Assembly: GCA_013152585.1 (NCBI GenBank)
Contig: JAADGC010000106.1
Span: forward strand, 5,915-39,435
Source of the DNA: Chloroflexota bacterium
GTDB taxonomy: Bacteria > Chloroflexota > Anaerolineae > J102
Direction: 5' to 3'
Length of the DNA stretch: 33,521 bases
Both the position numbers and the translations under genes were made by a program. This document shows, piece after piece, positions 11,906 through 16,787 of this stretch. A model generated the notes under the pieces. That model made no database searches and was not told where the DNA came from. It saw only the letters and a list, made by a program, of their open reading frames with translations. The stretch's first letter is position 1. Each line of letters starts with the position of its first letter.

Positions 11906-13675
11906 CTACAGCCACTGCGTCAAATCGGCAGTGCTCTCCAACACCAGATCGGCCGACTCGAGGTCGCGGCGGCTACCAAAACCACACAACACCCCGGCGG
12001 TTCGCGCCCCGGCAGCGCGGGCGGCATAAATATCTACCGTGGTATCCCCCACCATCACACATTGCTCAGGCGCCAGACCCAGCCCTGCCGCTGCGGTCAA
12101 CACCGGCTCGGGATGTGGCTTCAAGCGCCGTACGTCATCGGCGGTGATCACCAGTTCGAACATCCCGTCCAGGCCTGTGCTCTGCAGAAAATGTTCTGTG
12201 CTGGCGCGGCCACGGGAGGTGACGAGGGCCAGGCGATAATCTTGGCGCAAGGTGGTCAGCATCTCGGCTACACCGGGGATCAACACCATGTCGGTAGGCG
12301 ATTTTAGCCCCAACATGGTTTGTAACCAGCGGTTCAGGCGCAAGGCCTCATCATCGAGACTCAGCCGGTCAAATTGCGTCAACAGCCAGTTGATCGGACC
12401 TTCGGCCAGCATCAGCCAGTGCCGCAAAAAGGGAATCGCATCCCGGTGGGGAAACAACCGCTGGAGGGGTCCCAGGCGCCGGGCCCATCGCTGTAGCATG
12501 GCATCATCGGTATCAATCAGCGTACCGTCCAGATCAAAAAGCACTGCTGCCACGGGTTGCCCGCGGATCGTGCCCCTCCAGGCCAGGCCCACTGTATCGC
12601 TCTCATCCTTCTCTGCAAAGGGCTCCATATCCAACAACTTACGATAAACGTAGCCCCCAAACAAGCGCACCGAAGCCATGACCGGTGCGGCGATCAACAC
12701 CCCCATCAGGCCGATTTGGCTGGCGCCGATGATCGTGCCGGCAAAGACCACGGCCGGATGCAGACGCACACGACGGCCCACAATACGCGGCAACAAATAA
12801 ATCTGCTCGAACTGAAAAACAATGATGTAAACAATGGCCACAACCACGGCCATAATTAACGGGTTCAGGGGCAACCACGAAGAACCAAACACCAGTGCCA
12901 CCAACACGCCTACCATCGCTGCCAGCACCGGGCCAATCGTGGGCACAAATTCCATCAGACCCGAAATCAGCGCTAACAACAAAACATTCGGCAGCCCCAA
13001 AATCCACATACTCACCCCCACCAGGGCGCCCACCGCCACGCCCAGCACAATTTCCCCGCGGAAGAAACTGCCCCAGATGCTTCCCATCTCATGCAGCAAC
13101 TGCCCCACCTCGTTTCGATACGTGGGGGGAATATGGCCAAACATCCATCCTTCCAGACGGTAGCTATCCTTGAGCAGCCAAAACATCAACACCACAATGT
13201 ACACGGCCCAATACAGGCTGATGGCCAGCCCCGACGCGAATTGTAAGGCTCCTGTGGCCAACGGCGCCAGCATGGCCTGAAACTCCTGCTGAAACTGCTG
13301 GATGAGATCGGCAAAGCTGAGTGTAATCGGCCCCAGATGCAAGGATTGCCCTGCTACATTTTGCAAGAACGGCAAAAAACTGGTGATATCCAGATCGATG
13401 TTGGATATAATCGCCACCAGGCTGGGTGTGATGATTACGGGGGCCAACGCCAGCAACAAGACGGCGATGATGATGATCACGATCACAGCCAGCCCTCGCG
13501 GCCAACCCACCCGACGGCAGAGCCAGTTGGTGGGTGGGTTGAGTAAATAGGCCAGGATAACGGCAATCAAGGTGGGGGCTATCGCCTGGCTGAAGCTGAA
13601 TAACAACCAGATGCTGACCACCACACCGAACACGAGCACCATCCATTTTGTGATAGCCGACCAGCGTGTGTTCAT
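11906..13675 (-). CDS. AI-2E-family transporter fused to a HAD phosphatase
   Basis: A 589-residue fusion. Residues 1 to about 350 form an AI-2E-type permease (DUF20/PerM) with about eight membrane segments, FVPTIGPVLAAMVG-type helices and the typical ending RLHPAVVFAGTIIGASQIGLMGVLIAAP. After a linker of about 25 residues comes a complete HAD hydrolase. It has VLFDLDGTLIDTDD (nucleophile Asp381), VTSRGRAS, RRLKPHPEPVLTAAAGL and VMVGDTTVDIYAARAAG, resembling phosphoglycolate-phosphatase-like enzymes. The frame is continuous with no sign of a frameshift. I start at ATG 13675, 33 bp past the lepB stop; an upstream TTG start would overlap lepB. The substrate of either half is unknown. Confidence 0.87.
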   Translation of the reverse strand: MNTRWSAITKWMVLVFGVVVSIWLLFSFSQAIAPTLIAVILAYLLNPPTNWLCRRVGWPRGLAVIVIIIIAVLLLALAPVIITPSLVAIISNIDLDITSFLPFLQNVAGQSLHLGPITLSFADLIQQFQQEFQAMLAPLATGALQFASGLAISLYWAVYIVVLMFWLLKDSYRLEGWMFGHIPPTYRNEVGQLLHEMGSIWGSFFRGEIVLGVAVGALVGVSMWILGLPNVLLLALISGLMEFVPTIGPVLAAMVGVLVALVFGSSWLPLNPLIMAVVVAIVYIIVFQFEQIYLLPRIVGRRVRLHPAVVFAGTIIGASQIGLMGVLIAAPVMASVRLFGGYVYRKLLDMEPFAEKDESDTVGLAWRGTIRGQPVAAVLFDLDGTLIDTDDAMLQRWARRLGPLQRLFPHRDAIPFLRHWLMLAEGPINWLLTQFDRLSLDDEALRLNRWLQTMLGLKSPTDMVLIPGVAEMLTTLRQDYRLALVTSRGRASTEHFLQSTGLDGMFELVITADDVRRLKPHPEPVLTAAAGLGLAPEQCVMVGDTTVDIYAARAAGARTAGVLCGFGSRRDLESADLVLESTADLTQWL

Positions 13676-13707: not shown

Positions 13708-14391
13708 TCAGTGCATAAGACTGAAATCGGATAAAGGCCAATAGCGCAGCCAGGCGCGGCCAACCACATCCTTGATGGCGACGGGACCAAATGAACGCGA
13801 GTCATTGGAATTGTTGCGATTATCACCCATCACAAAGATGGTGTCCTTGGGGATGATCGTGGGCGGATATTGCCCGCGCATGGTTTTATCGAGATAGGGC
13901 TCAGAGAGCGGTACATCGTTGATGAATACCTTGCCATCTCGTACTTCGACTTTCTCACCCGGAAGCCCAATCACGCGTTTGATGAGCATTTCTTTGCCAA
14001 AGCCATCTACACGCACGACGACGATATCGTCCCGCTGGGGGGGATGAAAGTGATAGGATAACTTTTCGATGATCAAACGCTGATGGCCGTACAATGTGGG
14101 TTCCATGCTGTAGCCTTCGACGCGGGTGGCCTGGGCCAAAAACAGATGGATGAGCACGGCGATGAAAATGGCGGGCAAGATAGTCCCGAACATCTCGCCC
14201 ATCAGTTGCCCGGCCACAGAGGGGGATGTCTGGACCTGGGGCAGTGGACGCACGGGGCGGGCCGGCGAGGGGATGAGGCTATAGCTTTGCGGTTGGTCTT
14301 CCGGCCGAATGATGCGGGCATCGGGAGACAGGGTGCCGCGGGGATGATGCGGCTGCGAGATGATGGTTGGTGAATGACTTTCTTCGTTCAT
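13708..14391 (-). CDS. lepB: Signal peptidase I
   Basis: A 227-residue membrane serine protease that removes signal peptides from exported proteins. It has an unusually long proline-rich cytoplasmic N-terminus of about 65 residues, then a single membrane helix at about 67-87. The catalytic Ser95 lies in VEGYSMEPTL and the Lys138 base in EMLIKRVIGLPGE, followed by the conserved FVMGDNRNNSNDSRSFGPV. Three in-frame starts exist (GTG 14463, ATG 14400, ATG 14391). I choose 14391 because a promoter TTGACC-17-TACCAT ends seven bases before it, so ATG 14400 would lie upstream of the transcript start. The permease-HAD gene follows after 33 bp. Confidence 0.92.
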   Translation of the reverse strand: MNEESHSPTIISQPHHPRGTLSPDARIIRPEDQPQSYSLIPSPARPVRPLPQVQTSPSVAGQLMGEMFGTILPAIFIAVLIHLFLAQATRVEGYSMEPTLYGHQRLIIEKLSYHFHPPQRDDIVVVRVDGFGKEMLIKRVIGLPGEKVEVRDGKVFINDVPLSEPYLDKTMRGQYPPTIIPKDTIFVMGDNRNNSNDSRSFGPVAIKDVVGRAWLRYWPLSDFSLMH

Positions 14392-14396
14392 AACAG

Positions 14397-14425
14397 ACAT
14401 GGTATCGAAGTTCGGCTTCGAGGTC
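14397..14425 (-). promoter_or_regulatory. Promoter giving a leaderless lepB transcript
   Basis: On the minus strand TTGACC is followed by 17 bases (which form a TCGAAG/CTTCGA inverted repeat) and TACCAT, then seven bases to ATG 14391. Transcription would begin at or within a base or two of the start codon. Confidence 0.5.
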
Positions 14426-14525
14426 AAAACGGACGAGCCTGCGTCAGCGGCCGGTGGCGTCACCTGGCTTTGGCGATGATGCTATCGCGGAAATGGGGCC
14501 AAAGGGCAGGAATCGAGTGAATGGT

Positions 14526-14576: not shown

Positions 14577-16787
14577 TTAGCGACGAGAGCGATGACCACC
14601 GCGCGAGTTGCGGTCACGGCTGTCGCGGCCACCGCGGCGTCCTCCCGAACCACGACGATCTCGGGCTGCTGCCTCTTCGGCCGTCCAGTTTTCGAGCACG
14701 GCCTGACGGCTGAGCCGAATCTTGCCGGAACCTTCTTCGATGGAGATGACCATTACCATGATTTCGTCGTCCAGCTTGACCACATCTTCGACGCTGTCGA
14801 CACGATAGTCGGCCAGTTGCGAGATGTGTACCATGCCGTCCATGCCGGGAAGAATCTCGACGAAAGCGCCGTAGGGTTCGATGCGATTGACGCGTCCGGT
14901 GTAGATTTGTCCGACCTGGGCATCCTGAGTCATGCCCTCGATCTCCTCGACCGCTTTTTCCGCCGTGACGCCCCCGGCCACGTAGACGGTACCGTCCTCT
15001 TCGATGTCGATTTTGACTTCGTAGTCGGCCTGCAACTTGCGGATGGTTTTACCGCCAGGGCCAATCACCTTGCCAATCTTTTCGGGATTGATGTGCAGGG
15101 TGAGAATGCGGGGGGCATACTCGGACAGGTCTTCGCGGGCGTCGGGCAAAACCGCCAGCATTTTGTCCAAGATGAACAGACGCCCCGTGCGAGCCTGTTC
15201 CAGGGCGGCGGAGAGCAATTCGTAGCTGATCCCATTGATCTTGATGTCCATCTGCAGGGCGGTGATGCCGGCTGCTGTGCCGGCGACCTTGAAGTCCATA
15301 TCCCCCAGGTGATCTTCCATCCCCTGAATGTCAGACAGGACGACATAGCGGCTGTCAGACTGGGTGACGTCCCCTTCGCTGATCAGGCCCATGGCAATGC
15401 CCGCCACGGGGGCAGAGATAGGCACACCGGCATCCATCAGGGACAGGGTGCTGCCACAGACGGAAGCCATCGAGGTGGAACCGTTGGAAGCCAGGGATTC
15501 GGAGACGAGCCGCAGGGTGTAGGGAAATTCACTTTGCGAGGGGATCACCGGTTCCAGCGCCCGTTCGGCCAGAGCACCATGCCCAATCTCGCGGCGTTTG
15601 GGGCCGCGCATGGGCCAGGTTTCGCCGGTGGAGAAGGGCGGGAAGTTGTAGTGATGGATGTAGCGCTTGGTATCCTCGGGAGAGAGGTTGTCGAGGGTTT
15701 GAGCGTCGCGCGGGGTGCCCAGGGTGGCGATGGTCAGCACCTGGGTTTCGCCGCGGGTAAAGAGCCCGCTGCCATGGGTGCGCGGCAGAATATCGACAGC
15801 ACAGGAGATGGGACGGATTGTCTTGGAATCACGACCATCCGGACGGACATTGCGGTCGAGGATGCTGCTGCGAACCTTGACTTTGACAATATTCCCAAAG
15901 GCGGTGCGTAATTCATGGGCGTCGTAGGTTTCGCCCAGCGTCTCCATCATTTCGGTACGGATGGTGGCAAAGGCGGCGCTGAGAGCTTCTTTTCCCAGGC
16001 CGGAAGCAACCGCTTCTTCGACGCGGGTGCTGGCAAATTCGGTGGCGGCGGCGACCGCGGCGGCATCGGGCAAAGCGACGGTGAAACTCACCTTGGGCTT
16101 GCCCAATTGCTCCCGCATTTGATTCTGTAATTCGATGATAGGCTGCATGGCCTCATGGCCGATGCGTAGCCCTTCCAGCATCATGGCTTCGGGGAGCTCG
16201 CTGGCTCCGGCTTCGACCATGAGGATGCCGTCGGCTGTGCCGGCCAACCGCAGATCGAGGAGGCTGGTTTCGATTTCGGCAAAGGTGGGATTGATGACAA
16301 AATGATCATCGATGTAGCCCACACGCACGGCCCCGACAGGGCCACCCCAGGGCACATCAGAAATGGTGAGTGCGGCAGAGGCCGCGTTAATGGCCAGGAC
16401 GTCAAGAGGATTTTCTCCGTCAGCGCTGAGTGCGGTGCAAATGATCTGCACGTCGTTACGGAAGCCCTTGGGGAAAAGGGGGCGTAAAGGACGATCTGTG
16501 AGACGGGCGGTGAGGATCGCCTGTGTAGTGGGGCGACCTTCGCGGCGGAAAAAGCTGCCGGGGATGCGCCCCGCGGCATAGAGACGTTCTTCGAAATCGA
16601 CGCTGAGGGGAAAGAAATCAATCCCTTCGCGGGGGCTCGAGGAAGCCGTTGCGGTCGCCAGGATGACGACTCCTTCCAATTGGATAGTAACAGCCCCTCC
16701 CGCCAGTTTAGCGAGATCGCCTGTCTCCACCGCGATGACTTTATCACCGACCGTGGCTTCGAAATGGTGTTTTTGGTGGTAACTCAT
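14577..16787 (-). CDS. pnp: Polyribonucleotide nucleotidyltransferase (PNPase)
   Basis: A 736-residue phosphorolytic 3'-5' exoribonuclease, central to mRNA decay. Domains in order are RNase PH domain 1 (residues 1-230, with [29 protein letters not shown]), a helical linker, RNase PH domain 2 (about 310-540, with [13 protein letters not shown] and [21 protein letters not shown]), a KH domain ([11 protein letters not shown]) and an S1 domain ([20 protein letters not shown]). The tail is rich in Arg, Gly and Ser ([17 protein letters not shown]), as in many PNPases. ATG 16787 has GAGG seven bases upstream. A promoter candidate lies at 16833-16862 and a strong terminator follows. rpsO lies directly upstream, the usual pairing. 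Confidence 0.98.

Follow-up and report, generated by a model that had tools for sequence, protein, structure and literature searches.

A conserved fusion of an AI-2E transporter with a HAD phosphatase in Anaerolineae, and a catalytically degenerate but constrained form in one family

Background

The closest described systems each contain only part of the architecture reported here. TqsA (YdgG), the AI-2 exporter of Escherichia coli, is a pentamer with the AI-2E fold, and its 344-residue chain carries no HAD-sized tail. We know of no identified substrate for most AI-2E proteins. On the phosphatase side, AlnB (the alnumycin P phosphatase, 4ex6/4ex7) and the phosphoglycolate phosphatases 2hsz and 2nyv are chains of 222-243 residues with no membrane half. 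A related HAD domain is covalently tied to another function in MtlD, the mannitol-1-phosphate dehydrogenase of Acinetobacter baumannii (7ocn), where it is N-terminal (chain residues 6-186) and its partner is a soluble dehydrogenase; dephosphorylation by MtlD pulls its pathway forward. UPF0118 of Halobacillus andaensis, also of the AI-2E family, is a Na+(Li+)/H+ antiporter, and members of the family may differ in function (PMC7221264).

The window analysed here, a stretch of 33,521 nucleotides, comes from a Chloroflexota MAG (G000) of 3.8 Mb in 251 contigs and encodes a protein in which an AI-2E half precedes a C-terminal HAD. Literature searches, judged from titles and the beginnings of abstracts, returned no published description of an AI-2E/HAD fusion; the architecture is a new one built from two well-known families.

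Domain architecture of the window gene

The gene lies at 11906-13675 on the minus strand, with an ATG at 13675 and a stop codon at 11906-11908, and encodes 589 amino acids without an internal stop, which bears out the original prediction of a single uninterrupted frame. The AI-2E_transport domain (PF01594) covers residues 15-335 (12671..13633, minus strand) with a Pfam E value of 3.3e-44 and 151.8 bits, well above the family cut-off of 34.3. The end of the last membrane helix and the linker follow at residues 336-375 (12551..12670, minus strand), as delimited in an alignment of 58 fusions, in which linker positions R337, Y342, D349, P352 and F353 are conserved. Residues 376-585 (11921..12550, minus strand) form a class-IA HAD phosphatase domain, with a cap that we take to be of the C1 type; HAD_2 matches residues 378-562 at 5.7e-33 and 115 bits against a cut-off of 23.8.

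The four predicted HAD motifs are all intact, giving the complete class-IA set (DxD, T/S, K, D...D). Motif alignment places the motif I nucleophile D381 at 12533..12535, within FDLDGT and with D383 two codons further, motif II T486 at 12218..12220, with R488 two codons further, motif III K519 at 12119..12121, and motif IV D544 and D548 at 12032..12046, all on the minus strand. AlnB, 2hsz and 2nyv share this domain and catalytic set. AlnB is the best match both by sequence (1.8e-17) and by fold (VIA-align to 4ex7, Z 25.3, rmsd 3.4 over 178 residues, 33% identity).

An AlphaFold2 model built from ten sequences has a mean pLDDT of 67.5 and a pTM of 0.39; the HAD core is mostly in the 80s, the cap around 50 and residues 355-373 low, and the packing of the two domains in it is not reliable. 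The membrane part of this modest model has the TqsA fold (Foldseek to 7nb6, E 1.4e-7, TM-score 0.55 by target length). By sequence TqsA is matched by phmmer at E 0.45 only, and it is absent among the 50 VIA-align matches listed, which mostly cover residues 369-589. The window gene thus encodes a genuine, conserved two-domain protein, a TqsA-fold transporter followed by a HAD with complete catalytic residues.

Distribution of the fusion and reality of the join

The prediction had suggested looking for the same fusion in related genomes, and it was found there. Full-length fusions are present in 16 of 20 genomes of the window's own family (f1), the window's genome included, and the other 15 are 47-61% identical to the window protein; an order-level search returned the identical 20 genomes. 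In the remaining four, the fusion is split across two contig ends (G013), the match is limited to residues 1-393 (G018), the HAD stands alone with no membrane half (G019), or no fusion match was found (G003, 85% complete). Across the class, at least 75 of 396 genomes carry the full-length fusion, a lower bound since no more than three candidates per genome were scored at E <= 1e-55. These genomes belong to 12 families (f1, f2, f14, f16, f18, f20, f23, f26, f28, f31, f32 and f38), and partial matches cross the join in four further genomes (G013, G081, G082 and G393).

Searches beyond the class were sparse in hits. Among 400 genomes drawn from the phylum, of which the number outside the class is not given, the fusion was found at an E limit of 1e-62 only in G000 and G004, both of f1, and plasmids gave no fusion match at E 1e-20. 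A pattern-based contig scan (29 loci) yielded seven full-length matches, all in MAGs titled Caldilineales, Caldilineae, Chloroflexi, Anaerolineae or Anaerolineales, and the named fusion records L038-L045 include Caldilineales, Caldilineae and Anaerolineae MAGs. As far as sampled, the fusion looks confined to the window's class. The original view that no common family has this architecture therefore holds insofar as the fusion is restricted and no description of it was found, but within its one class it is a stable family.

An assembly or binning artefact at the join might be suspected in a MAG as fragmented as this one, the more so as one relative, G018, may itself be a chimera at motif I. The chance of this is negligible, with the join repeated in so many genomes of the class, the single-contig genomes G242, G299 and G383 among them, and an assembly error at the window's join was ruled out. 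The case named beforehand as refuting the fusion, two separate genes in close relatives together with an assembly error, was not seen; separate genes were found in two more distant families, f6 and f13, and a HAD lacking its membrane half at the locus of the own-family genome G019.

G018 itself (L024:1447-3411, plus strand) has an AI-2E part that passes into a Cof-type HAD at motif I. Relatives of this Cof gene (55-72% identity) occur in all of the five other f1 genomes searched, and in each of them the Cof gene and the fusion or HAD-only locus lie on different contigs. Around the join, G018 has 22 bases exactly in common with the Cof gene of G017 and an 18-base word in common with the G017 fusion gene. 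Given these Cof contigs and shared words, a natural domain swap was not accepted; a chimeric contig at the common 22-base word is likely and a real recombination less probable, and the gene was left out of the counts of both fusions and losses.

Loss of catalytic residues in family f38

Outside f38, 41 of 43 fused HADs and all seven related separate HADs have every catalytic residue. The two exceptions are L076 (K519R) and L102 (K519R and D548A); the latter, an f31 gene at L102:1001-2866 (minus strand), represents a second, separate catalytic loss, the other f31 sequences examined being complete. In f38, K519 is missing from all 34 fused HADs, with S, L, T, P or A in its place, and D548 from 33. 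The nucleophile D381 is replaced by T, E or S in nine of the 34, four of which are near-copies from genus g46, where the alignment is least sure; in the 25 that retain it, the role of K519 might in principle be taken over by a lysine located elsewhere. All 34 retain D383 and R488, and the latter position is Arg throughout the 84 fused or related separate sequences, degenerate ones included.

The degenerate domain has nevertheless stayed constrained. Nei-Gojobori estimates, rough values with synonymous sites near saturation in several sets (dS about 1), gave median HAD dN/dS of 0.107 in f38 genus g130 (15 sequences, 104/105 pairs), 0.043 in g46 (4 sequences, 6/6 pairs) and 0.149 in g92 (4 sequences, 3/6 pairs), the highest single-pair value used in these genera being 0.198. 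The complete HADs of f1 g7, f2, f16 and f23 have medians of 0.128-0.217. The membrane half is more constrained than the HAD in g130 (0.076 vs 0.107) and in g92 (0.069 vs 0.149). Judged by these ratios, the f38 HAD is under purifying selection and not decaying. Since it lacks catalytic residues yet is constrained, catalysis is unlikely to be its only role. The earlier proposal of dephosphorylation coupled to transport is consequently unlikely as a general rule, with all 34 f38 proteins still fused and constrained after losing catalytic residues; such coupling is possible for the window's own protein.

These observations bear on a reading in which the HAD is chiefly a regulatory sensor family-wide, binding a phosphorylated ligand, phosphate or Mg2+ and gating the AI-2E pore, with slow hydrolysis merely resetting the switch in most lineages and gone in f38. 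The f38 losses, the low dN/dS medians in three f38 genera, the invariant R488 and the separate loss of K519 and D548 in L102 all speak for it. The complete catalytic set in nearly all fused HADs outside f38 and in the separate ones speaks against it, being what is expected if turnover matters; R488 also matches a basic residue of ordinary phosphoglycolate phosphatases, so that its retention is no proof, and in two of the three f38 genera the membrane half is under tighter constraint than the HAD. On balance we regard a family-wide sensor as less likely than not, but as a close rival of the mechanism preferred below.

Genomic context and alternative forms

Directly upstream of the window gene lies lepB, encoding signal peptidase I (Peptidase_S26; 13708..14463, minus strand), and further upstream pnp, encoding polynucleotide phosphorylase (14577..16787, minus strand), both named from Pfam matches of the window's genes. 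The other flank holds DUF2520, panB and panC on the opposite strand. A lepB-like gene adjoins the fusion in 19 of 23 fusion loci and pnp is near it in 13, counts that include the doubtful G018 and come from a simple ORF caller, with shadow frames and contig ends hiding some neighbours. HAD-less AI-2E genes also adjoin pnp (L115, L116 and L117), two of the three adjoining lepB too. Since tail-less AI-2E genes occupy the same locus, a single orthologous gene has probably either gained or lost the HAD.

Families f6 (G024, G116, G170 and G185) and f13 (G066, where the AI-2E gene is truncated by the contig start) encode the AI-2E protein and the HAD as adjacent genes. The pairs overlap: with the last start codon before the AI-2E stop taken as the HAD start, the two genes share about 14 to 26 bases. 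The two parts thus also travel together unfused. In f6 a cation P-type ATPase gene is found immediately upstream of the pair (L160:3319-6042, plus strand; also L111 and L113). The HAD of a Thermoflexia MAG (L046) has no AI-2E part in its frame. In G019 the HAD stands alone (L026:1498-2235, minus strand) between panC and lepB, directly after lepB and at the site where relatives have the fusion; it keeps a remnant of the fusion linker, and the membrane half appears to have been deleted.

Other tails occur on AI-2E proteins. Five proteins from f10, f54 and f59 end in a tail of about 317 residues that contains GNAT acetyltransferase domains (L118:1038-3080, minus; L119:1941-4019, plus; L121:1068-3449, minus; L177:2047-4215, minus; L181:2962-5028, plus), and L121 adjoins pnp. 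In G028 a tail-less AI-2E copy stands in tandem with a GNAT-tailed one. In G048 an AI-2E frame runs into a Peptidase_M23 domain (L120:1932-4100, plus strand), a tail considered doubtful given ambiguous residues in the frame and a strange linker.

Two trees were made, both with near-copies and fragments omitted. In a quick AI-2E tree of 93 rows, one clade (SH-aLRT 99) takes in 49 of 53 fused rows, f38 among them, together with the G018 row; the remaining four fused rows (f2, f14 and f28) branch at a fork that the tree does not resolve, and f6 clusters with tail-less proteins (98). In a HAD tree of 63 rows, whose root on a distant outgroup is unsafe, f38 forms a clade (100/100), and the genes that stand separate in f6, f13 and Thermoflexia cluster with the fusions of f14, f2 and f28.

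The separate forms raise the question of whether the halves work together at all. The HAD could be a housekeeping phosphatase that became attached by way of overlapping genes and is simply anchored at the membrane, as the f6 and f13 overlaps, the lone HADs of G019 and the Thermoflexia MAG, and the HAD-less AI-2E genes at the same locus would allow. Functional independence of this kind seems rather improbable to us. The fusion persists in 12 families, f38 kept it after catalytic loss, which a mere housekeeping enzyme does not explain, and GNAT tails in three families suggest that the transporter C terminus is a preferred site for soluble domains.

Membrane orientation

Loop charges were compared across the 58 fusions. 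The outer loop at 86-140 is net positive in none of them, while the loops at 48-62 and 287-307 and the segment after the last helix (336-352) are net positive in 56, 53 and 42, respectively; the loop at 168-206, net positive in 33, is undecided. We infer that the N terminus and the tail, and with it the phosphatase, probably face the cytosol. GNAT acetyltransferases use acetyl-CoA, a cytosolic cofactor, and a cytosolic tail is preferred because the HAD and GNAT tails are both of cytosolic enzyme types. Against this positive-inside reading counts the C terminus of UPF0118, reported to lie outside on the basis of PhoA fusions (PMC7221264).

Substrate clues

The family name suggests that the fusion might export or import autoinducer-2, with the HAD acting on phospho-AI-2. 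The name is the one point in its favour. LuxS (PF02664) was found in 11 of 396 class genomes, many of them drafts, and all 11 belong to f27, in which no fusion was found; as LuxS was found in no fusion-bearing genome, LuxS-made AI-2 is an unlikely cargo and AI-2 is weakened as a substrate. An AI-2E member with another activity, Na+/H+ antiport, is moreover on record (PMC7221264). We consider transport of AI-2 very improbable, and for the fusion the AI-2E name misleads.

Membership of the Na+/H+ antiport group was also considered. The signature given for this group (E179-R182-K215-Q217-D251-R292-R293-E296-K298-S307; PMC7221264) was compared by eye over motifs C and D, and neither is matched. 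The window protein has EFVPTIGP in place of DF-PI-GSI, and has no R-R-T-V-E before the P-R-I-V-G stretch and no equivalent of S307. The antiport group was rejected on this comparison.

The HAD half offers a further lead. It scores 98.8 bits against TIGR01449 (PGP_bact), below the curated cut-off of 180, which is strict in that only one of 14 control genomes passes, and 107.6 bits against PpaX (NF009804), below the cut-off of 218; both names, phosphoglycolate phosphatase and PpaX, were therefore rejected. Within the window's genome the fused HAD is the top TIGR01449 match, at 94 bits in that search. In a comparison of 28 genomes, none of whose scores reaches the family cut-off, it is top in all 12 genomes with a complete fused HAD (G004, G005, G012, G014, G017, G032, G036, G049, G058, G069, G075 and G079); the adjacent HAD is top in both f6 genomes (G116 and G185) and the unfused HAD in G019. 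The fused HAD is top in none of eight f38 genomes, with a near tie in G113 (61.6 vs 61.7 bits), and genomes whose AI-2E protein is tail-less or GNAT-tailed can hold a different HAD with a still higher score (G077, 120.8 bits; G028, 100.3 bits); G103 gave no TIGR01449 match at the limit used. Because the fused HAD is the best TIGR01449-like match in its own genome, our best guess, offered as a lead and no more, is that the substrate may resemble 2-phosphoglycolate or a sugar phosphate. RuBisCO (PF00016) matches occur in nine of 14 genomes with a complete fused HAD vs one of eight f38 genomes, a contrast that we do not lean on because f38 is one clade and the difference may be a single event. 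The window's genome has a RuBisCO_large match with an internal TAG at G000:C92:94-867 (minus strand).

Proposed mechanism

The explanation that we tentatively prefer, while holding it as somewhat less than an even bet, is that an efflux-type transporter carries a cytosolic phosphatase, which dephosphorylates a small metabolite for export and in f38 has become a regulatory ligand-binding domain. A small phosphorylated metabolite would reach the phosphatase at the transporter's inner mouth; once its phosphate is removed, the product could be exported and would be released by the AI-2E half, which is probably pentameric like TqsA. Dephosphorylation and export is favoured by the complete HAD motifs of the fusions outside f38 and of the separate HADs. 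In f38 the HAD would have turned non-catalytic, probably still binding an anionic ligand and regulating the transporter, a regulatory role favoured by the loss of catalytic residues with constraint and R488 kept. The same degenerate HAD fits regulation better than coupled catalysis and so counts against dephosphorylation and export, as do the neighbours pnp and lepB, which give no metabolic hint, the PGP_bact and PpaX scores below their cut-offs, the external C terminus of UPF0118 and the modest confidence of the structural model.

Implications

With a phosphatase attached covalently, the ligand of an AI-2E transporter can be sought among fewer candidates, and the series of adjacent genes, complete fusion and degenerate but selected fusion provides a directly testable comparison. 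The conserved degenerate version in f38, outside the window, is the interesting part. A literature search on HAD pseudophosphatases, judged by title, found none about a transporter; should the f38 domain prove to gate transport, it would represent a bacterial pseudophosphatase whose partner is defined. A more specific scenario, speculative and in our estimate less likely than not, is that the f38 HAD was converted from a working enzyme to a dead but selected ligand sensor gating the AI-2E pore, among relatives with GNAT tails, overlapping genes or no tail. If true, these proteins would document, as a natural series, the change of an enzyme into a regulator of a transporter.
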